Part shown: in pieces, positions 9,169-39,274 of the stretch
How positions within the stretch are numbered: the first letter of the stretch is position 1
Layout of the letters: the number at the start of each line of letters is the position of its first letter
Assembly: GCA_937889545.1 (NCBI GenBank)
Contig: CALAOT010000125.1
Location: 1 to 64,000, forward strand
From: an uncultured Opitutaceae bacterium
GTDB taxonomy: Bacteria > Verrucomicrobiota > Verrucomicrobiia > Opitutales > Opitutaceae
DNA: 64,000 bases
Reading direction: 5' to 3'
The notes under the pieces: generated by a model
What the model was told of the DNA's origin: nothing
Database searches by the model: none
What the model saw: the letters and a program-made list of their open reading frames with translations, nothing else
Made by a program: the position numbers and the translations under genes

Positions 9169-9172
9169 GGGC

Positions 9173-9568
9173 TCACCTTATCGCCACGACCTCGATCTCC
9201 ACGCAACACCCTTCGCGGGCGAGGCCCTTCACCTCGATCAGCGTGCTCACGGGCCTCGAGTCCGCGAAATAGCGGTTTCTGATCGCCGAGAATCGCTCAA
9301 AGTCGGGCATGTGGGTGAGGAACGTCTGGACCTTCACGACGTCGCGAAAGCCCATTCCCGCGGCCTCGAGTATGGATCCGATCAGCTGGAAGACGAACTC
9401 CGTCTGCGCCGTCGCGTCGAACGGGGCGACTACCTTCCCGTCGCGATCGACGGCCAGCTGCCCCGTGACATAGAGAGTGCTCGAGCCGTCGTGCTCCACC
9501 AGGAGGCCCGGGCTGTAGGCCCCGCGAGGGGAGGGGTGGTTCGCGGGATAGACGAGGGTCTTCTTCAT
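9173..9568 (-). CDS. RidA/YjgF family enamine/imine deaminase
   Basis: A 131-residue protein of standard RidA length. Diagnostic features are GAYSPG near residue 16, the VTGQLAVD segment near 34, and the C-terminal RPVSTLIEVKGLAREGCCVEIE motif region whose arginine binds the carboxylate of 2-aminoacrylate in RidA. RidA hydrolyses reactive enamines and imines made by pyridoxal-phosphate enzymes. It is 4 bp upstream of the degenerate creatininase gene and likely the first gene of a three-gene operon. Some subfamilies act in specific catabolic routes, which would fit this context. Confidence 0.88.
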   Translation of the reverse strand: MKKTLVYPANHPSPRGAYSPGLLVEHDGSSTLYVTGQLAVDRDGKVVAPFDATAQTEFVFQLIGSILEAAGMGFRDVVKVQTFLTHMPDFERFSAIRNRYFADSRPVSTLIEVKGLAREGCCVEIEVVAIR

Positions 9569-9657
9569 GTGGGGCTAAAATGTTTCAATTTTCGGCGGGG
9601 CCGGCTTCAATCGCCAGGCCCCACGCCAGATTATCAGAATAACGAAGTTCACATTCC

Positions 9658-10680
9658 ATGAAAATCGGCCCCTTGACCGCATCCGCTTTGCTCGCACTGT
9701 CCCTCGCCGCGGGAAGGGCAGCCGCCCAGACGGCCGATCCCGGGGCAAGCGCTCGGACGAAGGCCGTCCTCGCCTATGTCCGTAGCCTCACCGAGGGCGG
9801 GGGAAGGCGGGTTCTGTCCGGCCAGTTCCTCGAGTTTGCTCCGAATGCGACCCTTTCGCTCCCCGAGGCGATCCACCAGGCGTCGGGCAAATGGCCTGCC
9901 TACATTGGCGTCGACTACATGAATTTCCGCACGCAGAGCATCGACACCGAGGCTGCGGACCGGGTTTCGATCGACTACTGGGGGCAGGGAGGGCTCGTCG
10001 AGGTGAACGTTCACCTCACCAACCCGGCCAATCCAAAGGGAGGGGGCCTCAGGGACAAGGGCGTCGACCTTTCCGAGGTGCTGAGGGCGGGCTCGGCCGC
10101 AAACATTGCGTGGATTCACGAGCTCGATCTTATAGCGGGGGGCCTGGGCCGGCTTCAGGACGCTGGCGTCGTCGTGCTCTGGCGCCCGTTCCACGAGATG
10201 AACGGCGGCTGGTTCTGGTGGGGGGCGAAGCCTCCGGCGGACTTCATCGCCTTGTGGCGCCAGATGTTCGCGTATTTCACGGGAGCCAAGCACCTACACA
10301 ACCTGATTTGGATCTACAGCCCCAACATGGGCGCGAACGCGGGCGACTACTATCCGGGCGACGGCTATGCCGACATGGTCGGCCTCGACGCCTACACCGA
10401 CTATGTGGATGCGGATCACATCAAGGGGTTTGCGGCGCTCTTGAAGACCGGCAAGCCGGCAGGCTTCGGGGAATACGGCCCGCATGGAGCCTCGAATCCG
10501 CCGGGCACGTACGAGTACACGAAGTTTGGCGACGGCCTCGCGGCGAATTTTCCGAGGGCCGTTTTCTTCATGGCGTGGAACGACAAATGGTGCCCGGCGA
10601 AGAACCTGAATGCGAAGGAGTTCTATAACGACCCCTCGACGGTCACTCGCGGCGACCTGCCGCCGGGACTTCTCAAATGA
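9658..10680 (+). CDS. GH26 beta-mannanase-like glycoside hydrolase, secreted
   Basis: A 340-residue single-domain secreted enzyme. A signal peptide covers about residues 1-23 (cleavage near AAAQ). The rest is a GH26 (alpha/beta)8 barrel: the acid/base glutamate is E180 in WRPFHEMNGGWFWWG and the nucleophile is E272 in GFGEYGP, with the family's NLIWIYSPN strand near 215. GH26 enzymes mostly cleave beta-1,4-mannan with retention. No carbohydrate-binding module is attached. The gene stands alone, convergent with an MFS transporter gene 5 bp away that could import an oligosaccharide-derived acid or sugar. Confidence 0.9.
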   Translation: MKIGPLTASALLALSLAAGRAAAQTADPGASARTKAVLAYVRSLTEGGGRRVLSGQFLEFAPNATLSLPEAIHQASGKWPAYIGVDYMNFRTQSIDTEAADRVSIDYWGQGGLVEVNVHLTNPANPKGGGLRDKGVDLSEVLRAGSAANIAWIHELDLIAGGLGRLQDAGVVVLWRPFHEMNGGWFWWGAKPPADFIALWRQMFAYFTGAKHLHNLIWIYSPNMGANAGDYYPGDGYADMVGLDAYTDYVDADHIKGFAALLKTGKPAGFGEYGPHGASNPPGTYEYTKFGDGLAANFPRAVFFMAWNDKWCPAKNLNAKEFYNDPSTVTRGDLPPGLLK

Positions 10681-10685
10681 CGCCG

Positions 10686-11990
10686 TCAGGCCGCTGATCT
10701 CGGGCTGGGATCGGGCAGGTGCTCGATCTTGCCGAGGAGAAGGATGAACGCGAGGGCGCCGATGACCAGAATCCCGGCGGCCGCGAGGAACGCGTAGGTG
10801 AACGAATGGGTGAACTTGACGATGAGGCCCGTCGCGATCGGGGCGGCGATTCCCATCGCATTGACCGCGAAGTTCATGATGCCGCCGACCGCCCCGACGC
10901 CGCCCTTCGGGGCGACGAGGGATGGCAGCGACCAGCCCACGGGCGCGGCCGCCGCAAGGCCCGCGAGGGAAATGGAGATCCAGAAGATCGCCCACGCGGG
11001 GCTGGCCGTCATCGTCGCGCCGACGACCGCCAAGCCCAGCAGCATTCCCGCGACGAGGACGGTCTTGCGAACCCGGGTCTCATCGGCCCCGCGTGCGATC
11101 AGGGCGTCGATCAGCCACCCGCCGACCGCCAGGTCCGTCAGGGTCGCGACGGCCCAGGGCGTCGCCGTGTAGGACGCGGACCTGAGGATGCTCATGCCGC
11201 TCGTGCTGACCAGGTAGGCGGGCAGCCATGTGAGGAACAGGTAGAACGAGTATCCGTACGCCCCGAACCCAATGGCCAGGCCCCAGACTTTCGGCTGCCT
11301 GAGCAGATAGCCCATCATGCCGAACGCGTCCGCATCCGAGGCGCCCTCCGCAACAGCCCCGCCCGAGAGGATGTGCTCGCGCTCGCGCCGGCTCAGGCGG
11401 CGGTCCGCGCTTGGGTCCCTGTAGAGGAGATAGAACGCCACGAAGTACACAAAGCTGATGGCGGAGGTGATTGCGAAGCCCCACCGCCAGCCGAACCGGA
11501 CCACGGCGTACGCGATCAGCGGGATGCCGACCACGTTGGAGAACTTCGCGGAGGCGTCGAAAATTGCCGTCGCCCTTGCCCGCTCGCTTCGGGGGAACCA
11601 ATGGCCCGTCGCCTTGGACACGGCCGGAAACGAGGGCGCCTCGGCGATGCCGAGGAGAAACCTCGCGGCCACGATTCCCCAGTATCCGCCCGCGACCGCC
11701 GTGACGCCGGAGGCCACCGTCCAGAGCAGGGAGCCCCAGCGTCCAACCCGGGTCACGCCCAGGCGGTCGACAACCAGGCCCATGGGTATCTGGAGGGCGG
11801 CGTAGGTCCATGAATACGCGCTCAGGAGAAACCCCAGGTCGGCCGGCCCGAGATCAAACACCTTCTGCAGCTGCGGCGCCGCGACCGAGAGGTTTATCCG
11901 GTCGAGAAAGCTTACGAGGATGCCGGAGCCCAGGAGGACGCCGATGCCCCAGCGCCTCCGCGGGATGGGGTCTGCCGGAATCGTAGGCAT
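10686..11990 (-). CDS. MFS transporter, anion:cation symporter-like
   Basis: A 434-residue 12-helix major facilitator. The first helix carries SFLDRINLSVAAP, the signature of the ACS (hexuronate/galactonate/phthalate) group, and helix 5 has the ARFLLGIAEAPSFPA motif typical of that group; a large loop separates helices 6 and 7. ACS members import organic anions such as sugar acids. The ATG at 11990 is chosen over an in-frame TTG at 12086 because it places the basic N-terminus directly before helix 1. No catabolic partner is adjacent apart from the convergent mannanase. Confidence 0.83.
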   Translation of the reverse strand: MPTIPADPIPRRRWGIGVLLGSGILVSFLDRINLSVAAPQLQKVFDLGPADLGFLLSAYSWTYAALQIPMGLVVDRLGVTRVGRWGSLLWTVASGVTAVAGGYWGIVAARFLLGIAEAPSFPAVSKATGHWFPRSERARATAIFDASAKFSNVVGIPLIAYAVVRFGWRWGFAITSAISFVYFVAFYLLYRDPSADRRLSRREREHILSGGAVAEGASDADAFGMMGYLLRQPKVWGLAIGFGAYGYSFYLFLTWLPAYLVSTSGMSILRSASYTATPWAVATLTDLAVGGWLIDALIARGADETRVRKTVLVAGMLLGLAVVGATMTASPAWAIFWISISLAGLAAAAPVGWSLPSLVAPKGGVGAVGGIMNFAVNAMGIAAPIATGLIVKFTHSFTYAFLAAAGILVIGALAFILLLGKIEHLPDPSPRSAA

Positions 11991-18810: not shown

Positions 18811-19839
18811 TCAGGCGGGCGCGATGGGCCGGCAAAGCGCGCCCAGGTTCGGCGGCGGCGTCGAAGCGGGAATCTCGCAGCCCGCGTTGATCATGAAGGG
18901 GTCGCCGGCTTCGGCATAACAGCCGCGGATGGCGGCGGCGACGCCTTCGGGCGTTCCGCGCATCACGCATGCGACGGGATCGACGTTGCCTGCCAGCACG
19001 ACCTTGGGGCCGAGCGCACGGCGGGCCTCGGCGAGGCTCACCATATGGTCGATGTCGACGATATCGAGGCCCAGCGTCGAGATGCCCGGCAGGAGATGCC
19101 TGATGTTGCCGCAGATGTGAAGCCGGACGTACACATTCATCCCGTGCAGCGCCGCCACGAGGCGATGCTCGTGCGGAAGGATGAGGGATTCGTAGACCTT
19201 TGGCGAAACCTGGCTGGCCACCGCATCGCCGATGCCGATCGTGTCGGCGCCGGCGGCCACCTGCGGCCGGGCGAAGTCGATCGCCGTTTCAACGCAGCGC
19301 GCCATCAGCGCGCTCGCGTAGGCCGGGTCATCGAGAAGATCCACAAAGAAGTTCGACACCCCCCGCAGGTCGGCTGCCTCGGCCGCGGGCCCCTCCACCC
19401 AGCCCATGATCGAGAACCGGTCGCCGGCCTGCGCCTTGTAGGCGCGCACGGCCTCGATGCGGTCGCGCATGCGCGGCGCCTGCAGGGGATCGGGCCGCGG
19501 AAGATTCGCTAGGTCCAGGTCGTCCTCAAGCGGCGGCTTGAGGCAGATGGGCACGCCGTCGCGGGGAAACTCGATCGGCGCGCCGAATCCCGCCGTCTCC
19601 CGGTAGGGGTCGGACATCGTGTTGAGCTGGTCGATCCCGAATTCCTCGGCGCAGCGCAGGTTGGCCTCGGTCAGCACGCGGTAGTCGGAGGCGAAGGCTC
19701 CGTAGCATGAGCCGATGTGCTCGGCGGCGAACTGCATCAGGATCGGCAGGCGGGGCAGCACGTCGGGCCTGACGCCGTGCAGCACGGCCATATAGCGTTC
19801 ACGCGGGGTCATGGGGAAACGAAGAAACGGCGATGGCAT
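18811..19839 (-). CDS. MtaA-like corrinoid:acceptor methyltransferase (URO-D fold)
   Basis: A 342-residue uroporphyrinogen-decarboxylase-fold protein of the MtaA/MtbA/CmuA type. The zinc motif of these methyltransferases, His-x-Cys then a distant Cys, is seen as H241, C243 (LHICGN) and C321 (NAGCEIP), which true URO-D enzymes lack. Such proteins move a methyl group from a methylated corrinoid protein to a thiol (coenzyme M) in methanogens or to tetrahydrofolate in bacteria. It is the last of the genes in the corrinoid operon, 166 bp after mtaB. The acceptor here is probably tetrahydrofolate, by inference. ATG 19812 is an alternative start. Confidence 0.8.
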   Translation of the reverse strand: MPSPFLRFPMTPRERYMAVLHGVRPDVLPRLPILMQFAAEHIGSCYGAFASDYRVLTEANLRCAEEFGIDQLNTMSDPYRETAGFGAPIEFPRDGVPICLKPPLEDDLDLANLPRPDPLQAPRMRDRIEAVRAYKAQAGDRFSIMGWVEGPAAEAADLRGVSNFFVDLLDDPAYASALMARCVETAIDFARPQVAAGADTIGIGDAVASQVSPKVYESLILPHEHRLVAALHGMNVYVRLHICGNIRHLLPGISTLGLDIVDIDHMVSLAEARRALGPKVVLAGNVDPVACVMRGTPEGVAAAIRGCYAEAGDPFMINAGCEIPASTPPPNLGALCRPIAPA

Positions 19840-20005: not shown

Positions 20006-21391
20006 TCAGGCCGCCTGGAGTCCGTACTCCGCGGGGAGGTATTTGGCCGGATCGGCATGCGACATCTGCCGGGAGATGAATTCAGCCTCGTCGGGCGGCA
20101 ATTCATCGAGCTGTGCCGCCATCGAGTCGAGGAACCCGAGCTCGCGCGGGGCGATCTTGAGCGAACCCGCGGCGTGGCCGGTGCGCAGCAGATCGAGGGC
20201 GCAGCGTGCCGCGGCGACGCCCGCCTGGTAATAATCCGGCGCGGCTACGACCGAGCGGGCGATCGCAAGCACGGCTTCCGGTGCCAGCACCCAGGCCTGC
20301 GGATCGAGACCCGCATCGGAGTCGACCAGCCAGCGCCGCAGGGTGAGGGCCGCGGCCTTTCCCTCGGCCAGGGCCCGGTTCATCAAACGGCAGTCGTAGA
20401 TCAGCTGCTCCATGTAGCAGGTCGGGGCCATGCCGGCAAGGAGGCGGACATTCTGCACCGACTCGTTGGACCACGTGTCCGCATAGGCCGCGGCGATATT
20501 GCCAAGCGGGCTGAAGTGCGCGCAGGCGGATGTCTTGCCTTCCATGGCCATCGGGTAACCGGTGATCGCCTTGAGGTATGGATTCTCGTATGCGCAGTCC
20601 TTGCCCGGGCCGACGGCGCCGTGTTCATAGGCGACGAGCGTGCGCACTGTCGTTACGGCGCGCACAACGGCGGCAAAGACCCGTGGGATCACCTTCTGCT
20701 CGGCAAGCACCATCGCTGTGTTGCCGAAGCCGCAGGCGGTGTCGCCCGCGCAGATGGCCCCGTGGCGCCGCGCGATTGCGCCGAGCTGCTTCCACAGAAA
20801 CTCCATGTCGCGCACGCCGAGCACGCACAGCGAGAAAATCACCTGCCCAAGGTCGCAGTTCATCAGCGCCTCGTCGTGCAGCTCTTTGCCGCCCACCGAC
20901 TCGATGCTCAGCAACTCGGCGCCGGCGCGCGCCGAGCCTTCAAACAGCTCCAGCATCCGCTCCCAGTGCTCGCCCGAGCGCATGACAGGCGGGCGGGCGA
21001 ACTCCCGGTTGTCGTTGGGCGTCATTCGCAGCGCCGTTGGAAGTCCGTAGTGGCTGCGCGCCTCCTCCATGCCGGCGAGGAGAATCTGCACAATCTCGAG
21101 GCCGAACGCCGGCGTGGCGGTCATCGGCGGCAATGTCTCGAACTCAATAACGACCCCGGGTGCCTCGAGCTCGGCCGCGCGCCGCAACGCGTCCTTGATG
21201 ATCCCTTGGTAATGGCGGGCGACGGCAGGCATGGTCGCAGCCGTGACCTCCATCGCGGGCAGTGTGAAATTGAGCTCGGGGTAGACCAGCCCCCCTCCCA
21301 GGCGAAGCCCCTGGCGGGTCAAGAGCGGCTTCGGCGCGGTGCCGAAAAGCAGGTCGTCCGCGTTGGTGATCGCAAGGTTCTGGTACTTCAT
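20006..21391 (-). CDS. MtaB-like methanol:corrinoid methyltransferase
   Basis: A 461-residue protein that aligns with archaeal and acetogen MtaB from its first residues (MKYQNLAITNADDLLFGT) to the C-terminal PAEYG. The three zinc ligands of MtaB are all present: E164 in LLSIESVGGKE, C220 in AGDTACG and C266 in GPGKDCAYEN. The segments EGKTSACAH and WSNESVQN are also shared. MtaB activates methanol (C-O bond) and transfers the methyl group to the cobalt of MtaC. The ATG at 21391 is chosen by homology over 21433. It follows mtaC closely. Methanol is the expected substrate, but a related methoxy compound cannot be excluded. Confidence 0.9.
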   Translation of the reverse strand: MKYQNLAITNADDLLFGTAPKPLLTRQGLRLGGGLVYPELNFTLPAMEVTAATMPAVARHYQGIIKDALRRAAELEAPGVVIEFETLPPMTATPAFGLEIVQILLAGMEEARSHYGLPTALRMTPNDNREFARPPVMRSGEHWERMLELFEGSARAGAELLSIESVGGKELHDEALMNCDLGQVIFSLCVLGVRDMEFLWKQLGAIARRHGAICAGDTACGFGNTAMVLAEQKVIPRVFAAVVRAVTTVRTLVAYEHGAVGPGKDCAYENPYLKAITGYPMAMEGKTSACAHFSPLGNIAAAYADTWSNESVQNVRLLAGMAPTCYMEQLIYDCRLMNRALAEGKAAALTLRRWLVDSDAGLDPQAWVLAPEAVLAIARSVVAAPDYYQAGVAAARCALDLLRTGHAAGSLKIAPRELGFLDSMAAQLDELPPDEAEFISRQMSHADPAKYLPAEYGLQAA

Positions 21392-21442
21392 GGTCGAGAG
21401 GATTGGGGATCTTGCGTTGGCGTCTCCCGCCATGCCACGGGG

Positions 21443-22075
21443 TCAGGCGAATCCCACGATCGCTCGGGCCTTGTCGGCAGCCGAAGCCGCATCGGGGGCA
21501 AATCCGTCTGCACCGATCTCGTCGGCGAACTGCTGGCTGATCGGAGCGCCGCCCACCATGATCTTTACCGGCAGGCATCCCGCGCGGATAGCCCGCACCG
21601 TCTCGACCATGGCCGGAATTGTCGTCGTCAGCAGGGCGGATAGGCCGACCACCTGCGGATGCTGCTCGTTGATCGCGGTAACGAACCTGGCTGCGGGCAC
21701 GTTTGCGCCGAGGTCGACGACGCGGAATCCGGCCGCCTTCCACATGACAACCACCAGGTTCTTGCCGATGTCGTGCAGGTCTCCCTGGACCGTGCCGATC
21801 ACGGCCGTGTACTTGGGCGTGATGCCTGCGGCGAGCAGTCGCGGTTCCAGCAGGTTCATCGCCTCCTTCATCGCGCGGGCCGCGACCAGCATCTCGGGGA
21901 CGAAGATCTCGTTGTTCTTGAACCTCTCGCCCACCGCGGCCATCGCGGGCACCAGGGCCTTGTCGACAAGCACGGCGGGCGTGGTCCCCTCATCGAGGGC
22001 CCGTTGCGTGAGGGCCCTGGCGTCCTTGCTCTTGCCGGCAGCGACGGCTTCGGAAAGCAGTTCGAGCGTGGTCAT
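21443..22075 (-). CDS. MtaC-like corrinoid protein
   Basis: A 210-residue cobalamin-binding methyl carrier. The N-terminal helical cap domain (about 1-85, with ALVPAMAAVGERFKNNEIFVPEML) is followed by the B12-binding Rossmann domain (about 88-210) with the base-off cobalt ligand H101 in GDLHDIGKN, then the GLSALLTTT and GGAPIS elements. It would accept a methyl group from the MtaB-like enzyme encoded directly downstream. The long reading frame continuing upstream in this frame is not used; the ATG at 22075 gives the standard family length. Confidence 0.92.
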   Translation of the reverse strand: MTTLELLSEAVAAGKSKDARALTQRALDEGTTPAVLVDKALVPAMAAVGERFKNNEIFVPEMLVAARAMKEAMNLLEPRLLAAGITPKYTAVIGTVQGDLHDIGKNLVVVMWKAAGFRVVDLGANVPAARFVTAINEQHPQVVGLSALLTTTIPAMVETVRAIRAGCLPVKIMVGGAPISQQFADEIGADGFAPDAASAADKARAIVGFA

Positions 22076-22182
22076 GGTATTGGAGGCGTTGGGTGAAGGG
22101 CTGCAGCCTAGCAGAAGCCGGGGCGGTAGGCTAGGACGGCGGCGCCGTGGTTTGGGAGTCCTGTGGGTGGGGCGGTCATCGG

Positions 22183-23814
22183 TCAGGGCAGGACCAGGTG
22201 GTCGATGTAGGCGTCCTCGAATCCGGGCTGAAGGTTGAGTTCGATCGCCTCCATGGTTCGGCACGCGGTCGACATCTCCTCGAGCAGGCTGCGGTCGTTC
22301 AGGGCGAGGTAGGCTCCCCCGAGCGAAGTGTTGCCGACCACATGGATCTGGCGCGGTGCAAAGCCCGGGAGCAGGCCGCAGCCGATGGCGTGCTCCAGCG
22401 ACAGGAAAAAGCCGAAGCCGCCGGCCAAATAGAGACGCTTCACGTTGCGCGGCTCGGTGCCGAGCAGGTGCAGCAGCGTCTCGGTGCCGGCTGCAATGGC
22501 GGCCTTGGCCTGCAGGAGCCGGGCGACGTCCAGTTCGGAGATCCATATCGGCCCCGAGGCGCCGTGGGCATGCAGCCGCAGCTTGAGCCCGTGTGCGTCG
22601 GCCTGCACGGCGTCGCCGGCGCGTGAGCAGAACGCGCGGTCGAGCCGGCCGTTGGACTGCAGGATTCCCTTGCGCCGTCCCTCCCAGAGAAAGTCCACGT
22701 AGGCCGAGCCGCAGATGCCGAGCGGCCGGTCGCTCGCGCCGATGATGCCGAGCTCCGCCGCAAAGGGTTCGGTCCGCAGGCGCACGCGCTCGATCGCGCC
22801 GTCGACCGCGCGGGTGCCGCACGTGAGGCCGGCGCCCTCGAAGGCGGGCCCCGCGGCGGTGGCGCAGCCGACCAGCCGGTCGCCGACCTTCGCGATGATC
22901 TCGCCGTTGGTGCCCACATCGATGAGCAGCGCCGGTCCGTCGTCATAGAGCAGGCCCGTGGCGACGATGCCGGCGGCAAGGTCGGCCCCCACGTAGGCGG
23001 CGGGCCCTGGCAGCAGGTGCACCTGCGCGGCGCCGTCGCCAAACTTCAGGCCGAGGTCGCCCGGCGAATAGGTCCGGTGGTCCAGGAAAGCCGGCTGGAA
23101 CGGATGGACGCCCATGGGTGTCGGGTCCACGCCCGCCAGCAGGTGCAGCATGGTGGTGTTTCCGGCGACGCTCATTGCGCCCACGGCGCCGGGCGCCACG
23201 CCCGCTCGGCGGCACGCGTCCTGCAGAAGCGGGGTGATCGTCTCGGCCGCCACGGCGCGCTGCAGCTGCCCGAGCGCCCCCGGGTCGGCGCCGCACTGCC
23301 CGATCCGCGTGAGCACGTCTTCCCCGAAGCGGATCTGGGCGTTGAACGCCGAGGCCGCCGCGAGCACCCTGCCGGTCGCGAGGTCGCACAGCAGCAGGGC
23401 CACGGTGGTCGTGCCGACGTCCACGGCCGCGCCGTAGCGAGCACCCGGGACGATGGGATCGCACGCCCAGGGGATGTTGAGGCGGAACTCCGCCACCACC
23501 GAAGGTTCGTGGGACATCAGCGAGCGCGCCGGAAGCGCCAGCTCGACATCCTCCGCGCCCAGGCGCATCTGGCATGACCTGACGCGGGCCGTGGCGCCGG
23601 CGGGGACGCGGGCTCCGTCGGCGATTCGGAGCAGCGAACCCGCACGGAGCTCGGCCTCGCAGCCTCCGCAGAGCCCGCGTTCGCCGCAGCGCGTGTTCAG
23701 CGGGAAGCCCCGGCTGGCCAGCAGCCTGGAGAGCTGTAGCGCCGCCTCGGCGCCCGCGACGGCGAGGTCGTGGCGCCCGTCGGGCGTGTGGACGTGAATG
23801 CGGGTTGCGGTCAC
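22183..23814 (-). CDS. RACo-type reductive activator of corrinoid proteins
   Basis: A 543-residue protein with an N-terminal plant-type [2Fe-2S] domain (cysteines C43, C49, C52 and C81) and a C-terminal ASKHA-fold ATPase domain of the DUF4445/RACo family beginning near 128 (AAVDVGTTTVALLL), with DVGTNGEI near 295, and LAGGFG near 470. RACo proteins use ATP and a low-potential electron to bring inactive Co(II) corrinoid back to Co(I). It lies just upstream of mtaC, its expected client. The electron donor is normally a ferredoxin; here the fusion protein encoded immediately upstream is a candidate donor. Confidence 0.92.
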   Translation of the reverse strand: MTATRIHVHTPDGRHDLAVAGAEAALQLSRLLASRGFPLNTRCGERGLCGGCEAELRAGSLLRIADGARVPAGATARVRSCQMRLGAEDVELALPARSLMSHEPSVVAEFRLNIPWACDPIVPGARYGAAVDVGTTTVALLLCDLATGRVLAAASAFNAQIRFGEDVLTRIGQCGADPGALGQLQRAVAAETITPLLQDACRRAGVAPGAVGAMSVAGNTTMLHLLAGVDPTPMGVHPFQPAFLDHRTYSPGDLGLKFGDGAAQVHLLPGPAAYVGADLAAGIVATGLLYDDGPALLIDVGTNGEIIAKVGDRLVGCATAAGPAFEGAGLTCGTRAVDGAIERVRLRTEPFAAELGIIGASDRPLGICGSAYVDFLWEGRRKGILQSNGRLDRAFCSRAGDAVQADAHGLKLRLHAHGASGPIWISELDVARLLQAKAAIAAGTETLLHLLGTEPRNVKRLYLAGGFGFFLSLEHAIGCGLLPGFAPRQIHVVGNTSLGGAYLALNDRSLLEEMSTACRTMEAIELNLQPGFEDAYIDHLVLP

Positions 23815-23892: not shown

Positions 23893-26184
23893 TCAGAACT
23901 CATCGTAGGCGAGCTGGCCGGCGGGGACGCCGATCTCGGCGAGCATCTTGTTGCAGGCCCTGACCATCATCGGGGGCCCGCAGAGGTAGTATTCAACGGC
24001 CTGCGGATTCGCGTGGCCGGCCAGGTGGCGCTCTCGGACAACCTCGTGGATGAAGCCGAGGTGGCCGCGCCAATCGTCTTCGGGAACCGGGGAGGAGAGT
24101 GCGAGGTGGAAGCTGAAGTTGCGATGGGTCTTCTCGAGATACTGGAAGTACGACTCGTAGAACAGCTCTTGGCGCGAGCGCGCCCCGTACCAGAAGCTGA
24201 CCCTGCGGGCGGTCCGCTCTGTCTCGAAGAGGTGCGACAGGTGCGCGCGCAGCGGGGCCATGCCGGCGCCGCCTCCGATGTAGACCATTTCCTTCCCTGT
24301 CGGCTTGATGTGGAAGTCGCCGAAGGGCCCGATGGCGGCGACGGCGTCGCCGGCCTTCAGGTTGAACATGTAGGCGGAGCCGGCGCCGGGCGGGCAGTCC
24401 TGTCCCGGGGGCGGGGTCGCGATGCGCACATTGAAACGCAGGACGTGCTCAAACTGGAGGTTGCTTGCGAGGGAATAATTGTTGCGGCGGCCCGATTCCG
24501 GGTTGCGGGCGACGAGGTCGAAGACGTGCTGCGCCCTCCAGACGGCCGCGTAGGGCTCGGGGATGTCGAACTCGCGAAAACGGATGAGGCCGTAGGAGGG
24601 TATTTCGAACTGCAGGTAGTCACCCGGGGCGAAGGCGATCCTCTCGGCCGGGTCGACGAGCTCGAGCACGAGTTCCTTGATGAAGGTGGCGACATTGCGG
24701 TTGCTGACCACCCGGAGGCGATAGGTCCGCTGCGGTCGCGCCCCGGCCCCGCCGGGTCTCGTCACGTTCAGGTAGAGGCGGCCGCCGCGCTCCTCGATGG
24801 GGTAGGTGGCGAGCGCGCGGCAGACGGGCGGGCGCGCCGGAGAGCCGTCGGCGAGATTGAAGCGGCCGTTGTGCTTCGGGCACTCGATGATCTCTCCCTT
24901 GACGAGGCCGTCGGAGAGCGGGGTATTGCCGTGGGTACACATGCCGTCGGTTGCGTAGAGCCTGCCCTCAGCGCCTCGGCAAAGGGCGTAGGCCCTCCTG
25001 TCGTGGTCAAAGCGGATGACATCCTCCGGGCCAAGGTCGGCGGCGGCGCAGACCTGGACCCAGCCCTCGGCATCGGCCGTCGAGCCGCCAATCGTGGTGC
25101 CAGGGTCGGCCCTTCCGGCCGTGGGCGCGGGAATCCGGCGCCGTACGCAGTAGGTGGGGTCCCTGGCCTGCTTGAGAACGGCGGGGACGATCTCGCGCCA
25201 GGCGGCGAGCAGGCTCGGGTAGGCCGGCGGCATGTCGTCCTTCACGACCTCGTGCAGGCGGGGCAGCGCGTGATACGGGACCAGCGGGAACATGTGGTGC
25301 TCGGTGTGGTAGTTCATGTTCCAATACAGGTACCGGTTGACGAAGTTCATGCGCACCGTCCGGCAGTTGAGACGGTGATCGAGGACGTTTTCAGCCAGGC
25401 CGGCGTGCTGCGTGAGCCCATAGATGGCCTGCAGCCATGAGCCGTACAGGTTGGAGAGGCCCACGTAGAGGAGAGGCAGGATGCTGCGCGTGTAGACCGC
25501 CAGGCCGATCACGGAGGCGTATAGGAGGACGTAGAAGCGGGCCTTGCGGTAGATCTTCTGGAATTCGCTCTCGGGAATGAACGTCTTCTCATCGGCGCCC
25601 ATCCGGCCGAGGGAATGCATCAGGATCCTGCTGAAATACTTTGGATACACGGGCACGCCGAAGAAGCCCAGGATCATCCTCTTCAGGTCCGGCGGACGGG
25701 GAACCGCGATCTCGGGGTCGCGGCCGACGATGATGGTGTCGCTGTGGTGGCGGGTGTGGCTCCAGCGCCACACCGTCGACTCCCGCATGACCATGAACGA
25801 GGCGATCTCATAAAGCGCGCTGTTCATCCAGTCGGTCCTGAAGGCCGTGCCGTGCCCGGCCTCGTGCCAGCGCGAGTCGGAGGTGGAGGCGTAAAGGACG
25901 GCGTAGATCCCGAACGGGATGACCGCCCACCATGTCCCCCAAAGGGCGTACCCCGCGTAGCCGGATCCGAGGATCAGGGCAAACCAGACAAGGGTGTCGG
26001 CGATGGCCGGGGCGTCGCGGCGCTCCAGGAGCCTGCGCATGGTTGCGCGCGGGACGGGGCATTGGTACCAGTCGGCCTCGGCGAGGCCCTTCTCGACTGC
26101 GAGCGCGGCGTTCACCCCGACGAGGCTGTAGTCCAGCTTCGCCGCGCGCTTGGGGAGGACGGAGGTTTCGTGGCCGTCGCTCAT
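23893..26184 (-). CDS. Fatty-acid-desaturase/Rieske/NqrF-like reductase fusion
   Basis: A 763-residue protein joining three redox modules. Residues ~60-345 form a membrane diiron desaturase/hydroxylase domain with all three histidine boxes (H107/H111, H143/H146/H147, H293/H296/H297) and H260. Residues ~372-480 are a Rieske domain with C416-x-H418 and C435-x2-H438. Residues ~486-763 resemble the FAD/NADH domain of NqrF, with RIATPPPGQ, GGGAGMAPLRAH, FWYGARS and CGPPMM motifs, but without NqrF's own [2Fe-2S] domain; the FAD motif reads NNYSLAS where NqrF has RAYSMAS. It could carry electrons NADH-FAD-Rieske-diiron in one chain. The ATG overlaps the DUF1638 stop by 4 bp. Substrate unknown. Confidence 0.88.
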   Translation of the reverse strand: MSDGHETSVLPKRAAKLDYSLVGVNAALAVEKGLAEADWYQCPVPRATMRRLLERRDAPAIADTLVWFALILGSGYAGYALWGTWWAVIPFGIYAVLYASTSDSRWHEAGHGTAFRTDWMNSALYEIASFMVMRESTVWRWSHTRHHSDTIIVGRDPEIAVPRPPDLKRMILGFFGVPVYPKYFSRILMHSLGRMGADEKTFIPESEFQKIYRKARFYVLLYASVIGLAVYTRSILPLLYVGLSNLYGSWLQAIYGLTQHAGLAENVLDHRLNCRTVRMNFVNRYLYWNMNYHTEHHMFPLVPYHALPRLHEVVKDDMPPAYPSLLAAWREIVPAVLKQARDPTYCVRRRIPAPTAGRADPGTTIGGSTADAEGWVQVCAAADLGPEDVIRFDHDRRAYALCRGAEGRLYATDGMCTHGNTPLSDGLVKGEIIECPKHNGRFNLADGSPARPPVCRALATYPIEERGGRLYLNVTRPGGAGARPQRTYRLRVVSNRNVATFIKELVLELVDPAERIAFAPGDYLQFEIPSYGLIRFREFDIPEPYAAVWRAQHVFDLVARNPESGRRNNYSLASNLQFEHVLRFNVRIATPPPGQDCPPGAGSAYMFNLKAGDAVAAIGPFGDFHIKPTGKEMVYIGGGAGMAPLRAHLSHLFETERTARRVSFWYGARSRQELFYESYFQYLEKTHRNFSFHLALSSPVPEDDWRGHLGFIHEVVRERHLAGHANPQAVEYYLCGPPMMVRACNKMLAEIGVPAGQLAYDEF

Positions 26185-26966
26185 GGGGCGGGCGGGGGCG
26201 CGGCGGCGCGCGCGGGCACCGCCTTGACAATGCTGGCATCGGCGGCATGAGCGATCCGCTCGCCGGGCCGCACGACCAAGAACCGCTCGCTGTCCCACGG
26301 CCCGCGCAGCAAGTCGCGCAGGAGCGTGGCATCGCCCGCATGGCGCTGAAAGCGCCAGCCGAGCGCCCCCGCGCATCTCTCGGCGTAGCGCCGGTCCTTA
26401 TCGTCGCCGGGCAACCCGAGGTCAGTGTAGCCGGCGGTCGTGTGCTGCGCAAAGGCCTCGCGCTCCAACTCCAGCAGCGCCTCGGCCTCCTCGGCCCCGA
26501 ATTTCGCGGCATACTCCGCCCGCAGCTTCGCTTCCCTCTCGGGGCCCGGCACGCGCTGGGCCCTGTTCCATCCCGGCGAATACCAATAGGTCCCCGGTTC
26601 GTCGCGCATCTGCGCTGCGTAGCGCTCCTTGCTTCCGAGATACAGGGTGATGCAGTCGTGCGCCCTGGGGACGACCAGCGGGCAGCGGCGCGGAGCGAGA
26701 TCCGTGAGCGCCAGGCCGCAGAGGCCGTACCCGAGAACCACCTGCTGCACCGCCGGGTCGTCTTCGGCCCGCCCGATCGCGCCAGCGAGCAGCGAGCGCA
26801 GCCTGGAGGGCTGGTCGTGCAGGCCGATGTCGAAGAATTCCCGCCGCACGATGTGGGTGGCACCCTGGGCGAGCGCCGCAATCTCCGCCTCGAGAACGCG
26901 GCAGGCGATCAGGGCCGAGGCGGGCGGCGGGCCGGCGGGCGGACTCGGCGTCTGGGGGCCGATCAT
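26181..26966 (-). CDS. DUF1638 domain protein
   Basis: A 261-residue protein with the DUF1638 signature: YGLCG near 80-84, PRAHDCITLYLGSKE near 100-115 and GTYWYSPGWN near 125-134. The family's function is unknown, but members are known from gene clusters with corrinoid methyltransferases and RACo-type activators, which matches this operon. Both ends overlap neighbours by 4 bp (ATGA), with the sugar porter upstream and the desaturase fusion downstream, so all three are probably made in fixed ratio. The paired cysteine and histidine residues could bind metal; this is inference. Confidence 0.85.
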   Translation of the reverse strand: MIGPQTPSPPAGPPPASALIACRVLEAEIAALAQGATHIVRREFFDIGLHDQPSRLRSLLAGAIGRAEDDPAVQQVVLGYGLCGLALTDLAPRRCPLVVPRAHDCITLYLGSKERYAAQMRDEPGTYWYSPGWNRAQRVPGPEREAKLRAEYAAKFGAEEAEALLELEREAFAQHTTAGYTDLGLPGDDKDRRYAERCAGALGWRFQRHAGDATLLRDLLRGPWDSERFLVVRPGERIAHAADASIVKAVPARAAAPPPAP

Positions 26967-28375
26967 TGGCTCCAGCCCTCCTCGATCTGCTCGAGCGTGC
27001 GTCCCTTGGTTTCCGGAACGAACCGCCACACCACAAGCAAAAGAACGGCGCAGAACGCCGCGTAGACGTAGAACGGGAACGCGTGGTTGAACTGCCGCAC
27101 GAACCACAGGCCCTTCGTGTTCATGATCGGGAAGGTCTGCGTCACCGCGTAGTCGGCCGTCCACAGGAAGAAGGTGGCCAGCCCGAGCGCCCGGCCGCGC
27201 ACCGCCGTGGGAAAGATCTCCGAGAGGATCACCCAGGTGACGGGACCGACCGAGAGCCCGAAGGCGGCGATGTAGAGCACGATGAAGAGCAGCATCCACC
27301 CGCTTGTCGCGCCCGGATCGGCCATGTGCTGCCCCATCGCGCCCATGGCAAGGAGGCTGGCGCCCATTCCGGCCGTGCCAAGGAGCATGAGCGGCCGGCG
27401 GCCCCAACGGTCCACGGTGGCGATCGCGACCAGCGTGAAGAGGACGCCCGCTCCGTTGATGATGACCTGCTGCAGCAGGCCGGCGTCCACTCCTGTGGAG
27501 GCGCTCATGGTCCTGAATATGGTCGCGCCAAAATACATGAAGACATTGATGCCGGTGACCTGCTGGAGGACGGCCAGCGCGATGCCCAGGAGCAGCGGCC
27601 GGCGCAGCTGGCGGGAAAATAGCGCCCCCCACGTCCCTTGTTCCCGGGAAATCGTGTCCTTGATGCTGGCGAACTCGGCGTCGGCGAATTGAGAGCCGCC
27701 CACCTTTCCGAGGATGGCCTTCGCCCGCTCCTCGAGCCCCATTTCGATCAGCCAGCGCGGGCTTTCGGGTATGGGCAAAAGCAGCAGGCCGAACAGCACC
27801 GAGGGCACGATTCCCGTGGCGAACATCCAGCGCCAGCCGGTCGAGATCAGCCACGCCTGGTCGCCGCCCCGGGCGATGAAGTAATTGACGAACGAGGTCG
27901 CCGCGATCCCCCCGACGATGGCGATCTGGTTGACCGCGACCATCCGCCCGCGGATCTGCGCCGGGGTGATCTCGGCGATGTACATCGGCGTGGAGATCGA
28001 GGCGAAGCCGATGCCGACGCCGCCGAGGAAGCGGAACACGATGAAGACCAGGATCTCGCGCGGCAGCGCAGTGCCGATGGCCGAGGCGAAGAACATGATC
28101 GCCGCCAGGAACAGGGCGGGCTTGCGCCCGAAGCGGTCGGAAAGGGGCCCCACGAGCAGCACGCCCGCCGCGCACCCGATGAGCACACAGCCCGACGTCC
28201 AGCCTTTCATGAAGTCGCTAAGGCCGAAGCGCGCGGTCAACGGCTCGATCGCTCCCGAGATGACTCCGGTGTCGTAGCCGAAGAGCAGGCCCCCGAATGT
28301 CGCAACCAGGCAGATGGGCACCAGGTAACGCAGGTTCACGGCGACCGGCCGGGGGAGTGTGCGGGGCTCGGGCAC
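26963..28375 (-). CDS. MFS sugar porter (XylE/GLUT-like)
   Basis: A 470-residue 12-helix transporter of the sugar porter family. Signatures are GYDTGVISGAI near 34, DRFGRK near 80, the PESPRWL motif near 200 after helix 6, and PETKGRTLEQIE at the C-terminus. Family members move neutral monosaccharides such as xylose, glucose or galactose, mostly with protons. Its place inside a corrinoid methyltransferase operon, 4 bp overlapping DUF1638, suggests the imported compound is a sugar or sugar-like methyl donor, or that a sugar is the inducer. No sugar kinase or isomerase lies within the operon. Confidence 0.9.
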   Translation of the reverse strand: MPEPRTLPRPVAVNLRYLVPICLVATFGGLLFGYDTGVISGAIEPLTARFGLSDFMKGWTSGCVLIGCAAGVLLVGPLSDRFGRKPALFLAAIMFFASAIGTALPREILVFIVFRFLGGVGIGFASISTPMYIAEITPAQIRGRMVAVNQIAIVGGIAATSFVNYFIARGGDQAWLISTGWRWMFATGIVPSVLFGLLLLPIPESPRWLIEMGLEERAKAILGKVGGSQFADAEFASIKDTISREQGTWGALFSRQLRRPLLLGIALAVLQQVTGINVFMYFGATIFRTMSASTGVDAGLLQQVIINGAGVLFTLVAIATVDRWGRRPLMLLGTAGMGASLLAMGAMGQHMADPGATSGWMLLFIVLYIAAFGLSVGPVTWVILSEIFPTAVRGRALGLATFFLWTADYAVTQTFPIMNTKGLWFVRQFNHAFPFYVYAAFCAVLLLVVWRFVPETKGRTLEQIEEGWSQ

Positions 28376-28387: not shown

Positions 28388-29650
28388 TCAGGGGCGGGCG
28401 CCGTCGCGGATGGCCCGGAAGATTGCCAGCATGTTCTCGACGGAGGTTGGCCCCTGGATGTTGTGGATCGCGTTGAAGACGAATCCGCCGCCGGGACCGA
28501 AGATGTCGATTCGCTCTCGGCACTGCCGGTAGACATCGTCGGGCGTGCCAAAGGGCAGCGTGTGCTGGGTGTCGACGCCGCCGCCCCAGAACACGATGTC
28601 GCGGCCGAACTCCCTCTTCAGGCGGACCGGATCCATCTCGGCGGCGGAGCACTGCACGGGGTTGAGGACGTCGAATCCGGAGGCGATGAAATCCGGGATC
28701 AGGGGATAGACTCCGCCGCACGAGTGGATGAACGTCTTCCAGGACGAGTGGCGGTGGATCAGCGCGTTGAGCCGGCGGTGGAAGGGCTGGAATAGCGTGC
28801 GGTACGCCTCTCGCGAGATGAACGGCCCGCGCTGGGTGCCGAAATCCGTGCCGGTGAGCATGGCGACCTGCACCGTGTCGCCGAAGATGTCGATGAGAGT
28901 CCGGATGTTCCGCTCGGCGATGGCGCACTGCCGATCGAAGACCTCCAGGACGTAATCCCGCCGCGCGACGGTGGAGACGTACCACTCCTCGATGTCGCGG
29001 ATGCCCTTGGGGTCCTTCAGGAATGGCGCGGGAACGAGCGCGATGTCGCCGAATGCGGCGCCCGGCACCACGAGGAAGGCGCCGAGGTCGCCGCGTTCCT
29101 CGAGCCAGCGTTTCTGCGCGCGGTAATAGGCGAGGTCGTCCTCGGTAAGGGGGGCAAACTCCTCCAGGTTGTCCGCGGGGTCGAGCCGGTCGTCGTCGAT
29201 CGGCGGCTGGCGGATGATCGAGTCGAAAAAGTAGCCGCCCTCGGGCATGTGGCCGCTCGGCAAGACGGTCAGGTCACCCTCGGGGTAGATATGCCAGCCG
29301 CCCTCGGGGGCTCGGGTGACGTTGAACTGCCCGGGCACCATGCACTCGGTGCCGTCGAACAGGGTGAACGGCTTCCAGTCGCGCGACTCCGTGCCGAACA
29401 TCGACTTGCGCCCCGGCACCCCGACAACGTCGATCGGCAGGGCTGCGAGCAGGAGGTCGTCAACCTCGCCGAGCATCTGGTAGGGCTCTATGACCTTCAC
29501 CCGATAGCCGTCGTCGGCGAGTAGGCGGAGGCGGAGGCGGGCCACGGCCGACACGTGGATGCCGGTGACAAAGGAGGCGCCGAAGTCGACGGCGACCCGG
29601 TCGGAGCTTTGATGGGCAAGCGAGGCCGCGAGACGTTGCCGTCCGGTCAT
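28388..29650 (-). CDS. URO-D-fold methyltransferase-like protein
   Basis: A 420-residue uroporphyrinogen-decarboxylase-fold protein, longer than MtaA because of an insert at about 60-160. The C-terminal barrel carries the HSCGG motif near 313, matching the first part of the His-x-Cys zinc site of corrinoid methyltransferases; a clear distant third cysteine is not evident. It is the first gene of the operon and faces the AraC-type regulator across a 109-bp gap. It may bind or transfer methyl groups from a substrate different from that of MtaB, but activity is unproven. True haem-pathway URO-D is unlikely given context and length. Confidence 0.75.
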   Translation of the reverse strand: MTGRQRLAASLAHQSSDRVAVDFGASFVTGIHVSAVARLRLRLLADDGYRVKVIEPYQMLGEVDDLLLAALPIDVVGVPGRKSMFGTESRDWKPFTLFDGTECMVPGQFNVTRAPEGGWHIYPEGDLTVLPSGHMPEGGYFFDSIIRQPPIDDDRLDPADNLEEFAPLTEDDLAYYRAQKRWLEERGDLGAFLVVPGAAFGDIALVPAPFLKDPKGIRDIEEWYVSTVARRDYVLEVFDRQCAIAERNIRTLIDIFGDTVQVAMLTGTDFGTQRGPFISREAYRTLFQPFHRRLNALIHRHSSWKTFIHSCGGVYPLIPDFIASGFDVLNPVQCSAAEMDPVRLKREFGRDIVFWGGGVDTQHTLPFGTPDDVYRQCRERIDIFGPGGGFVFNAIHNIQGPTSVENMLAIFRAIRDGARP

Positions 29651-29759: not shown

Positions 29760-30584
29760 GTGGCCATGCGCAACTACCACGGCATGGAGATCGCGTGGGC
29801 CAACCGCCTGGTGCAGACCACGCAGGTCGACTTTGGGCGCGTCAAATATATCCCGGGCGGCTATTGCGGGCCGCGGCGCCAGCGCGACTATCAGCTCGTG
29901 GTGCTGCAGGCGGGCGGGGCGCACGTGACCGTGGACGGCGAGACGCTGGCGCTGCCGGCGGAGCAGGCGGTCCTGTTCCTGCCGGGCCACCGGGAGGATT
30001 TCGTATTCTCCCCTGACCAGGAGACCGAGCATGTCTGGTGCTCGATCCGGCCCCGGTTCATGCCGGCCGAGCTCAGGTGGCGGCTGGCGCGTGCGCCCCG
30101 GATGGTGCCGTGCTCGGAGCTGATGCACCGCCTGTTTGCGGCCGCGCAGGGATGCCGCCGCGTGAGCAGCGTGGCCGCCGGGCGGGTGGTGGAGCACATC
30201 GGCCTGGCTCTGTTCGCGGAGTTCCTGCACCAGGCGGCGCTCTGGCCGCATCGCGCGCATCAGGACGAAGGGCTGAGCCGCGCGATGGCCTGCATCGAGG
30301 AGCACTTCGGAGAGGAGGACTGCCTGGCCAGCGCCCGGCAGGCGGCGCGATGCTCGGAAAGCGGCCTTAACCAGCGGTTCCGGCGGTACCTCGGCACGAG
30401 TCCCGCCCGCTACCTCTGGCTGACCCGGGTTGAACGCGGCGTCGCGATGCTGCGCGACACGGGGCTCACGGTGACGGAGATCAGCGCGCGCTGCGGGTGC
30501 AAGAATCCGTTTCACTTCTCCCGGCTGGTGAGGCGCAGCCAGGGCATGCCGCCGCGCCAGGTGCGCCGCTGCGCCTGGCAATGA
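29760..30584 (+). CDS. AraC family transcriptional regulator
   Basis: A 274-residue regulator with an N-terminal cupin-like ligand domain (about 20-140) and a C-terminal double helix-turn-helix (about 175-270): the first helix pair includes CLASARQAARCSESGLNQRFRRYLG-type sequence and the second includes TEISARCGCKNPFHFSRLVRRSQGMPP. It is divergent from the eight-gene corrinoid/sugar-porter operon and most likely its activator. The ligand is expected to be the imported substrate. GTG 29760 and ATG 29766 are near-equivalent starts. Confidence 0.88.
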   Translation: MAMRNYHGMEIAWANRLVQTTQVDFGRVKYIPGGYCGPRRQRDYQLVVLQAGGAHVTVDGETLALPAEQAVLFLPGHREDFVFSPDQETEHVWCSIRPRFMPAELRWRLARAPRMVPCSELMHRLFAAAQGCRRVSSVAAGRVVEHIGLALFAEFLHQAALWPHRAHQDEGLSRAMACIEEHFGEEDCLASARQAARCSESGLNQRFRRYLGTSPARYLWLTRVERGVAMLRDTGLTVTEISARCGCKNPFHFSRLVRRSQGMPPRQVRRCAWQ

Positions 30585-34111: not shown

Positions 34112-34228
34112 ATGGATCCGCCGGACGAGGCCGCCGCCCCAGCCGGAGGCCTTCGGCTCGACTTTTGCGAGGCCACGGAATACTGGTCAGGCGTCGTGGA
34201 CCGGCTCCGGACGCGACCCCCCTTTTGA
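34112..34228 (+). CDS. Possible 38-aa ORF before hypE
   Basis: Not recognised. An ATG at 34112 with GGAGAG directly upstream opens a 38-residue frame that ends 5 bp before the preferred hypE GTG. The product starts [13 protein letters not shown] and ends in a charged helix-like half with two tryptophan/tyrosine positions. Third codon positions are mostly G or C, as in nearby genes. It may be a translated leader coupling ribosomes to hypE, or chance. Confidence 0.3.
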
Positions 34229-34233
34229 ACGGC

Positions 34234-35268
34234 GTGCCCCAGTGTCCCGTGCCCATCTCCGAACGGGCCGAAATCACCATCGGCCACGGCGGCGGCGGGA
34301 GGCTGACCGAGGAACTCATCAACGGCATCTTTCGGCCGGCGTTCGCCAATCCGGCGCTGGAATGCCGGCACGACGGGGCCGTGCTGCAGGCCAACGGCGC
34401 CCGCCTCGCCTTCACCACCGACGCGCACGTCGTGAGCCCGCTCTTCTTCCCGGGGGGAGACATCGGCAGGGTCGCGGTCAACGGCACGGTCAACGACCTC
34501 GCCATGTGCGGCGCCCGTCCCCTTTGGCTGAGCGCAGGGTTCGTCCTCGAGGAGGGCCTGCCTATCGAGACGCTCCGGCGCGTGGCGGCTTCCATGAGCG
34601 AGGCGGCCGCGGCCGCGGGAGTCACGATCGTCGCCGGGGACACGAAGGTGGTCGAGCGCGGCAAGGGCGACGGGCTCTACGTGACCACGGCGGGCGTCGG
34701 GCTGATCGAGCATGACCTGAGCATCGGGCCCGCGCAGATCAGGGAAGGCGACGCCGTCATCCTGAGCGGAGATGTCGGCCGCCACGGCATGGCCATCATG
34801 GCGGTTCGGGAGGGCCTGGCCTTCGAGAGCCCGATCGAGAGCGATTGCGCGCCGCTGTCGGCGCCGGTCGGGGCGCTCCTCGCGGCCGGTCTGGAGGTGC
34901 ACTGCCTGCGCGACCTCACCCGGGGAGGACTGGCCACGGCCCTGATCGAGCTGGCCGAGGCCCGGAAGGTCGTGATCGCAATCGACGAGAGCGCGGTCCC
35001 GGTGAGCGAGGCGGTTCGCGGGGCGTGCGAGATTCTCGGGCTGGAGCCGCTATATGTCGCCAATGAGGGGCGCTTTGTCTGCTTCGTGCCGGAAGCCGAC
35101 GCTCCCGAGGCCCTCGGGGTGCTCGCCCGCACCGCCCCGGGCGGGCCGCCGGCCGTCATCGGCCGGGTGCGCGCGTCCACCGCAGGGGAGGTCTCGCTGC
35201 GCAGCGTGATTGGCGCCGAGCGGATCCTGCACCGCCTCAGCGGCGAGCAGTTGCCGAGAATTTGTTAG
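34234..35268 (+). CDS. hypE: Hydrogenase maturation protein HypE
   Basis: A 344-residue HypE. It begins after a short leader with [17 protein letters not shown], has the AIR-synthase-fold ATP site ([32 protein letters not shown] near 60-90), [13 protein letters not shown] near 145, and ends in PRIC, whose terminal cysteine takes the carbamoyl group and turns it into thiocyanate. HypE works with HypF to make the CN ligands of the [NiFe] centre. Unlike the other hyp genes it is on the plus strand, convergent with them. The start is uncertain: GTG 34234, GTG 34249 or TTG 34165. Confidence 0.93.
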
Positions 35269-35307
35269 GGTTAGCGCAAAGAAAACCCCCAAACAGAGGA
35301 GGATAGG

Positions 35308-35541
35308 ATGAAGTCGCAAATCATGGGTCTAAAGGTCGCTGGCACGCTGTTCATATTGGTGGCCCTGGCGCATTTGGCTCGGTTGGTGCTCGGCTGGACG
35401 GTGCAGCTCCACGGCCGTTACTTCGGCATGCGGTGGAGCATCGCCGCGATCGTGGTTTCGGCTGTGCTGGGCATCTGGCTTTGGATGCTCGCCGGCTGCG
35501 GCAAGACGGATGCGGCTTCTCCGCCTCCGCCGAAGGCCTGA
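35308..35541 (+). CDS. Small two-span membrane protein (77 aa)
   Basis: Not recognised as a named family. ATG 35308 has a GAGGAGGATAGG Shine-Dalgarno region immediately upstream. Two membrane helices (about 8-30 and 42-62) are joined by a short loop with LHGRYFGMRWS, and the C-terminus is short and polar with prolines. It lies 39 bp after hypE on the same strand and ends 7 bp from the convergent hypD stop. Its position suggests co-transcription with hypE, but no hydrogenase role is shown. Confidence 0.7.
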   Translation: MKSQIMGLKVAGTLFILVALAHLARLVLGWTVQLHGRYFGMRWSIAAIVVSAVLGIWLWMLAGCGKTDAASPPPPKA

Positions 35542-35548
35542 CCGAGCG

Positions 35549-36655: not shown

Positions 36656-36924
36656 GGCGGGCCTTGGGATGGGGCCGGCTCGGGATCGAGCCCCTCGAGC
36701 TCGCCCATGGCGCGCAGGTACCGGAAGGTCTCCTCGGCCTCCTCGGCGTCAATGACGCCGATGGCGACGCCGACGTGCACCAGCACAAAGTCGCCCGGGC
36801 GGGCCTCGGGCGCGCAGGCGAGGCTCACCTCCTTGATCACTCCGCCGAAGCTGACGCGCCCGCTGCGCTCCAGCGGATCTTCGCCTTGGACGCTGAGGAG
36901 CTTTCCTGGGACGGCGAGGCACAT
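36652..36924 (-). CDS. hypC: Hydrogenase assembly chaperone HypC
   Basis: A 90-residue HypC beginning MCLAVPGK, with the essential cysteine at position 2. HypC holds the iron unit with HypD and carries it to the hydrogenase large subunit precursor. The later [23 protein letters not shown] segment is typical. The stop overlaps the hypD start by 4 bp; it begins 9 bp after hypF ends. Confidence 0.95.
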
Positions 36925-36933
36925 GGCGGCGGG

Positions 36934-39270: not shown

Positions 39271-39274
39271 GCGA

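Follow-up and report, generated by a model that had tools for sequence, protein, structure and literature searches.

Results and Discussion

The MtaB-MtaC-RACo Set

The window analyzed here is a stretch of 64,000 nucleotides (nt) from an uncultured Opitutaceae bacterium, and the system in question is a set of three minus-strand genes at 20006-23814 that encode an MtaB-like zinc methyltransferase, its corrinoid protein MtaC, and the corrinoid activator RACo.

20006..21433, minus strand: MtaB, zinc methyltransferase I (475 residues; assigned from PF12176, the 2i2x_A match, the zinc ligands and the fold)
21443..22075, minus strand: MtaC, corrinoid protein (210 residues; PF02607 and PF02310; cobalt histidine in DLHDIG)
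22183..23814, minus strand: RACo, reductive activator of corrinoid protein, [2Fe-2S] plus ASKHA (543 residues; PF14574 and PF17651)

The MtaB-like protein scores 534 bits against PF12176 (E = 4e-160, cut-off 25) and is the sole product of a PF12176 gene in the source genome, a 4.3 Mb assembly that is 92% complete. A phmmer search matches it to the crystallized Methanosarcina barkeri MtaB (2i2x_A) at E = 5e-88, and the two proteins are 38% identical. The true start is probably at position 21391, corresponding to Met15 of the longest open reading frame, and counted from there residues E178, C234, and C280 of that frame become E164, C220, and C266. As an earlier note on this DNA had proposed, these residues align with the zinc ligands E164, C220, and C269 of the M. 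barkeri enzyme, and they are present in every one of the 68 MtaB sequences gathered. All of the zinc ligands and 77 positions are in common with M. barkeri MtaB. The AlphaFold model of the window MtaB (pLDDT 90.7) matches 2i2x_A with a TM-score of 0.94. That the protein works like MtaB is well supported by sequence and predicted fold.

The readings of the two partner proteins in the same note are likewise upheld. The DxHxxG histidine of MtaC is present as DLHDIG alongside B12-binding domains, the motif is identical across all MtaC relatives compared, and the protein matches 1y80 at E = 3e-52. Its top-scoring model is the generic corrinoid model TIGR02370 (175.9 bits, below the cut-off of 215.3), and the cut-off of the NCBI model MtaC_Meth is not reached (115 vs 420 bits). 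The four RACo cysteines form an N-terminal C-x5-C-x2-C-x(n)-C motif for a [2Fe-2S] cluster, and both Raco_middle and RACo_C_ter are present, with 227 bits for PF14574 and 159.5 bits for PF17651. The closest solved relative is 3zyy (E = 2e-78), to which the ferredoxin region aligns weakly; the NCBI AcsV model gives 339 bits against a cut-off of 800. Taken together, the matches and motifs of the three proteins exceed by far what chance would give.

Since the checked catalytic residues are intact and conserved throughout the clade, MtaC and RACo are adjacent, and the fold is of the MtaB type, the set likely encodes a working corrinoid methyltransferase. We consider it probable that this is a working methyl-transfer system that acts on an oxygen-bound methyl group. 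The earlier description of a complete set holds for the three genes, while the second methyltransferase, an MtaA-like protein of the uroporphyrinogen decarboxylase (URO-D) superfamily, lies outside them and just downstream, at 18811-19839. The claim of a working enzyme finds support in the conserved residues, the adjacent genes, and the fold; as the protein falls in a clade separate from the characterized archaeal enzyme, methanol is a candidate substrate.

A Separate Bacterial MtaB Clade

In a maximum-likelihood tree, the window MtaB and 64 other bacterial sequences lie on one side of a branch supported at 100/100, with 2i2x, an archaeal sequence (locus L055), and a canonical-looking Opitutaceae MtaB (locus L113) on the other. 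The tree is unrooted and was built without acetogen MtaB sequences, so that the separation applies to the characterized archaeal methanol enzyme and L113 only; within that scope, the phylogeny proposed in the earlier note places the protein in a separate bacterial group. The 65 sequences come mostly from Verrucomicrobiota, with Planctomycetota, Armatimonadota, Acidobacteriota, and others also represented. A plasmid search with MtaB returned no match, and our literature searches turned up no description of the clade, nor any of sugar demethylation by MocD-like enzymes in Verrucomicrobiota.

The L113 protein (genome G141, 9160-11628) is of the canonical type, 47% identical to M. barkeri MtaB and scoring 652 bits against NF040651 (MtaB_Meth), the NCBI equivalog model for methanol MtaB. 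It comes from the same family as the source organism and is unlike the window MtaB; two MtaB types therefore occur within one family. The L055 protein (9974-11356, on a contig of a Thermofilaceae archaeon) scores 521 bits and is about equally distant from both groups.

The Gene Run around the Set

On the minus strand the gene order is UROD2, sugar porter, DUF1638, fusion oxygenase, RACo, MtaC, MtaB, UROD1. The earlier account did not include this operon context, that is, the sugar porter, the fused oxygenase, the DUF1638 protein, and the two URO-D proteins. The features surrounding the set are as follows.

18811..19839, minus strand: UROD1, candidate MtaA-like methyl-corrinoid:thiol methyltransferase (PF01208, 201.5 bits; zinc motif HICGN...GCEIP)
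23893..26184, minus strand: fusion of a MocD-like membrane di-iron oxygenase, a MocE-like Rieske ferredoxin and an NqrF-like NADH/FAD reductase (763 residues; Pfam FA_desaturase, Rieske, NAD_binding_1)
26181..26966, minus strand: DUF1638 protein, partner of RamA/RACo-type corrinoid reactivation (PF07796, 113.8 bits)
26963..28375, minus strand: XylE-like sugar porter of the major facilitator superfamily (TIGR00879, 370.6 bits, cut-off 237.8)
28388..29650, minus strand: UROD2, URO-D superfamily (420 residues; PF01208, 38 bits; HSCG motif, no second Cys)
29760..30584, plus strand: AraC-family regulator, divergent from the run and 109 nt away (PF12833, PF02311)

The DUF1638 gene overlaps both of its neighbors, the porter and the fusion, by 4 nt, and the remaining gaps range from 9 to 166 nt (12 nt between UROD2 and the porter). 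A near relative, L004, has the identical gene order, including the AraC arrangement. This compact layout is consistent with transcription of the run as one unit. The porter scores 450.9 bits with the XylE model, below the cut-off of 608.

The HxC...C motif of MtaA and MetE activates a thiol. UROD1 has as its best PDB match the methylcobalamin:coenzyme M methyltransferase 4ay7, with the H, C, and C residues aligned, and HxCG...GC is kept in 14 of 14 relatives; the cut-off of TIGR01463 is not reached (151.6 vs 235.4 bits). In UROD2, HxCG is conserved and the GC motif is absent. Searching PDB sequences with a UROD2 profile gave no match; the top fold match is the methyltransferase 4ay8, marginally above URO-D decarboxylases, and UROD2 is possibly a methyltransferase. 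The UroD superfamily includes several known corrinoid O-demethylases (PMC13222342), and UROD2 could therefore be a second donor enzyme. A role for DUF1638 is suggested by Phaeobacter fitness data (PMC5764234), and in aerobes DUF1638 and RamA-like proteins aid the reactivation of corrinoids (PMC5764234, PMC12478193). We also considered that RACo and DUF1638 serve methionine synthase (MetH); this was rejected, as the MetH of this genome keeps its own activation domain.

The first domain of the fusion shares 55% identity with a Rhizobium MocD-like desaturase/oxygenase and carries the histidine boxes HEAGH, HTRHH, and HTEHH (HxxxH, HxxHH, HxxHH). The second, with the Rieske motif CTH...CPKH, is 52% identical to a MocE-family ferredoxin, and the MocE model TIGR02377 falls short of its cut-off (111.9 vs 136.15 bits). 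The third scores 316.8 bits with the NqrF model over residues 488-763. As this exceeds the cut-off of 295, automatic annotation may miscall 23893-26184 as a subunit of the Na+-translocating NADH:quinone reductase. MocDEF reportedly performs rhizopine demethylation, according to a model from 1998. The rhizobial mocDEF genes are part of the catabolism of inositol-derived rhizopines, including 3-O-methyl-scyllo-inosamine (PMC10107442). Neighbors of the fusion include aldose 1-epimerase (15 of 37 loci), AraC regulators, UROD2-type proteins, and isomerase-like TIM barrels, and a relative on a Burkholderia plasmid adjoins iolG and xylose isomerase. Together, the Moc relatives and these neighboring genes point to a role for the fusion in the catabolism of O-methyl sugars or cyclitols. 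At two further loci (L077 and L111), rhizobial MocDEF-like genes are flanked by genes for cobalamin synthesis and for NAD synthesis and adjoin a PanB-like hydroxymethyltransferase.

Recurrence of the Gene Associations

Among the 38 MtaB loci with enough flanking sequence, MtaC lies within 9 kb of MtaB in 30, and RACo is found in 15, a PocR-type AraC regulator in 15, DUF1638 in 13, and a homocysteine S-methyltransferase in 11. Near-full-length fusions occur in 47 of 384 genomes of the class searched, namely in 8 of 21 genomes with MtaB versus 39 of 363 others (p = 0.0017). The fusion is near MtaB in six loci with differing gene orders (the window, L004, L014, L015, L022, and L024), where about 0.03 such neighborings would be expected by chance; the majority of MtaB loci are without it. 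The unusual feature is this repeated union of MtaB with an oxygen-dependent, demethylase-like fusion, joined in the window and L004 by the sugar porter.

Other loci differ in their surroundings. At L014 (2242-8000) the fusion is followed by a TIM-barrel protein, a HIBADH-like dehydrogenase, FdhD, and an FdhF/YdeP-family oxidoreductase, and then by MtaC-MtaB; the intervening genes possibly handle formaldehyde or formate. At L119 (1-8721) several URO-D paralogs form an array adjoining MtaB and MtaC; these paralogs could be methyltransferases specific for different donors. In the close relatives L003, L007, and L051, a CobW-like ATPase and a DUF6580 protein lie directly downstream of MtaB, possibly for cobalamin or metal supply.

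Metabolic Context and the Pectin Question

Neither CdhC (acetyl-CoA synthase) nor formyltetrahydrofolate synthetase was found in the source genome, of which about 8% may be missing from the assembly. ComA gives a sub-threshold match only, and PF00809 occurs solely inside MetH, with no pterin-type MtaA found. Methylenetetrahydrofolate reductase and two heme-copper oxidases are present. Beside the operon, 34165-54000 holds a fermentative/hydrogen block, with HypF, CobW/HypB-like, AIRS (HypE-like), and HupE proteins, pyruvate:ferredoxin oxidoreductase (41546-45181), acetyl-CoA hydrolase, a NiFe hydrogenase large subunit (47395-48819), and a NuoF-like diaphorase (50093-51745). The missing CdhC and formyltetrahydrofolate synthetase and the sub-threshold ComA, together with the oxidases, the pyruvate:ferredoxin oxidoreductase, and the hydrogenase, suggest a facultative organism that is neither an acetogen nor a methanogen. 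Acetogenesis was rejected on the first two of these absences, and a methanogen-type coenzyme M pathway for want of a ComA above cut-off. A standalone homocysteine methyltransferase is encoded in the genome and such genes occur near MtaB in 11 of the 38 loci, which makes homocysteine the likeliest thiol acceptor of UROD1.

The earlier note had suggested that methanol comes from the bacterium's own pectin breakdown, and this part was not borne out. No pectinesterase above cut-off is found in the source genome (one partial match, 20.3 bits, cut-off 27). In a sample of 60 genomes, which is not random but partly drawn from lists made for other matches, pectinesterase occurs in 3 of 21 genomes with MtaB and in 15 of 39 without it (p = 0.08); when the genome with the canonical MtaB is left out, the figures are 2 of 20 versus 15 of 39 (p = 0.03). 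An own-pectin source was rejected on the missing match above cut-off in the 92% complete genome and on the depletion, rather than enrichment, of pectinesterase among the MtaB genomes of this sample. It is unlikely that pectin methanol made by the same cell feeds MtaB; methanol from other organisms is possible.

Proposed Function and Alternatives

We propose that the run is a facultative demethylation operon, in which a corrinoid methyltransferase module of the distinct MtaB clade is combined with a second module that would take up and demethylate O-methyl sugars or polyols, and we give this reading about an even chance. The sequence itself shows which genes are present, their motifs, the clade, the compact layout, and the recurrence of the association. 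A small methyl donor, most likely methanol, would have its C-O bond activated by the zinc of MtaB (E164, C220, C266), and MtaB would pass the methyl group to Co(I) on MtaC; for methanol as the direct donor, we regard the case as evenly balanced. Any Co(II) would be re-reduced by RACo with DUF1638, at the cost of ATP. UROD1, as an MtaA-like zinc enzyme, would then transfer the methyl group to a thiol, probably that of homocysteine to give methionine, and UROD2 may supply the same MtaC as a further transferase, specific for another donor. When O2 is available, the MocD-MocE-NqrF fusion would take the methyl group off an imported O-methyl sugar or cyclitol, with the sugar and formaldehyde as products. 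We infer all of the substrates, the methyl acceptor, and the oxic/anoxic division of labor.

Several observations weigh against this proposal. The window MtaB does not reach the cut-off of NF040651 (390 vs 720 bits), and relative to M. barkeri the clade has the conserved changes T85F, H87T, Q89P, I126P, and G127N. These cluster directly after two predicted barrel strands, so that contacts with the donor or with MtaC may differ from those of methanol MtaB. With gaps of 78 nt ahead of RACo, 107 nt ahead of MtaC, and 166 nt ahead of UROD1, the layout is no proof of a single transcript. Many genomes have the fusion without MtaB, and at L137 UROD2, the porter, and the fusion occur without it, so the modules are separable; since MtaB and the fusion each occur alone as well, the window looks like two interleaved modules. 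Finally, it is unusual for one operon to bring together cob(I)alamin chemistry and an enzyme that needs O2.

A simpler explanation is that the methyl groups for methionine and one-carbon metabolism come from free methanol, which MtaBC would take from the environment whatever its source, with the porter and the oxygenase merely co-induced by plant polysaccharide for unrelated work. The zinc ligands and the 77 positions in common with M. barkeri MtaB, the closely matching fold, and the absence of the fusion from most MtaB loci all favor it, but it has to contend with the separate clade and its changes adjoining barrel strands, the acetyl-CoA synthase, formyltetrahydrofolate synthetase, and pterin-type MtaA not found in the genome, and the recurrent link between MtaB and the fusion. 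We consider it a possibility of perhaps half the weight of the combined operon. The pectin-fed version is far less probable still; the intact MtaB-like protein and polysaccharide enzymes such as the GH97 in the window are in line with it, but the pectinesterase results speak against it.

Alternatively, the clade MtaB could itself O-demethylate methylated sugars or cyclitols rather than methanol, with the corrinoid and oxygenase routes sharing one compound under anoxic and oxic conditions. The operon with a sugar porter and a MocDE-like oxygenase, the clade-specific residues adjoining barrel strands, and the same association in divergent loci would fit such an enzyme. The MtaB core is strongly conserved, however, and as the known corrinoid O-demethylases are of the UroD superfamily (PMC13222342), UROD2/UROD3 would be better candidates; we judge this explanation unlikely, less so than the pectin-fed version and more so than plain methanol use.

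In methanogens and acetogens, the presence of MtaB is usually taken to indicate methanol use. The 65 sequences considered here form a clade apart, and in the one genome examined closely the expected downstream pathways were not found. Should the donor be something other than methanol, surveys that count mtaB carriers in the environment as methanol users would have to be revised. Should the operon prove to be a dual oxic/anoxic demethylation system, the removal of methyl ethers from plant sugars by soil and freshwater bacteria, on which our literature searches found little, would become testable. Were MtaB itself a sugar O-demethylase, a facultative bacterium would use the same methylated substrate with and without oxygen by two chemically different routes encoded in one operon.

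Comparison with Known Systems

The set resembles MtaBC of M. barkeri (2i2x) in fold, zinc ligands, a DxHxxG corrinoid protein, and adjacent genes; it differs in its 38% identity, separate clade, lack of a ComA match above threshold, sugar/oxygenase operon, DUF1638, and short RACo. Acetogen mtaABC clusters (Moorella, Acetobacterium) also hold MtaB and MtaC together, and their MtaA, of 29.7 kDa, passes the methyl group to tetrahydrofolate (PMC13391211). In the source genome, by contrast, PF00809 is confined to MetH, a URO-D/MtaA-like zinc protein is the candidate for the second methyl transfer, and key Wood-Ljungdahl enzymes were not found.

Rhizobial MocDEF (PMC10107442) shares the desaturase-like oxygenase and Rieske ferredoxin (52-55% identity), frequently with isomerase-like TIM barrels nearby, the relatives compared being MocE-family loci and not the characterized moc locus; in the window these parts form a single chain, and an NqrF-like reductase replaces the separate FAD oxidoreductase. 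The P450 system that demethylates 6-O-methyl-galactose (PMC10033563) likewise removes a sugar O-methyl group oxidatively to give formaldehyde, which for the window would be by inference only; it employs a P450 instead of a di-iron MocD-like oxygenase, and no corrinoid arm is described for it.

Type 1 mlp clusters (PMC10418091) combine bacterial MtaA-like URO-D proteins with a corrinoid protein and a reductive activase and are proposed for methyl-sulfur/selenium metabolism, whereas the window cluster has MtaB and an oxygenase. Finally, the MtgBCD/RamA/DUF1638 system of marine bacteria, which links glycine betaine to methionine (PMC12478193), is similar in its aerobic host, corrinoid protein, RamA-type activase, DUF1638, and homocysteine methyltransferase link; it acts on glycine betaine instead of an oxygen-bound methyl group, and its donor enzyme is not MtaB.

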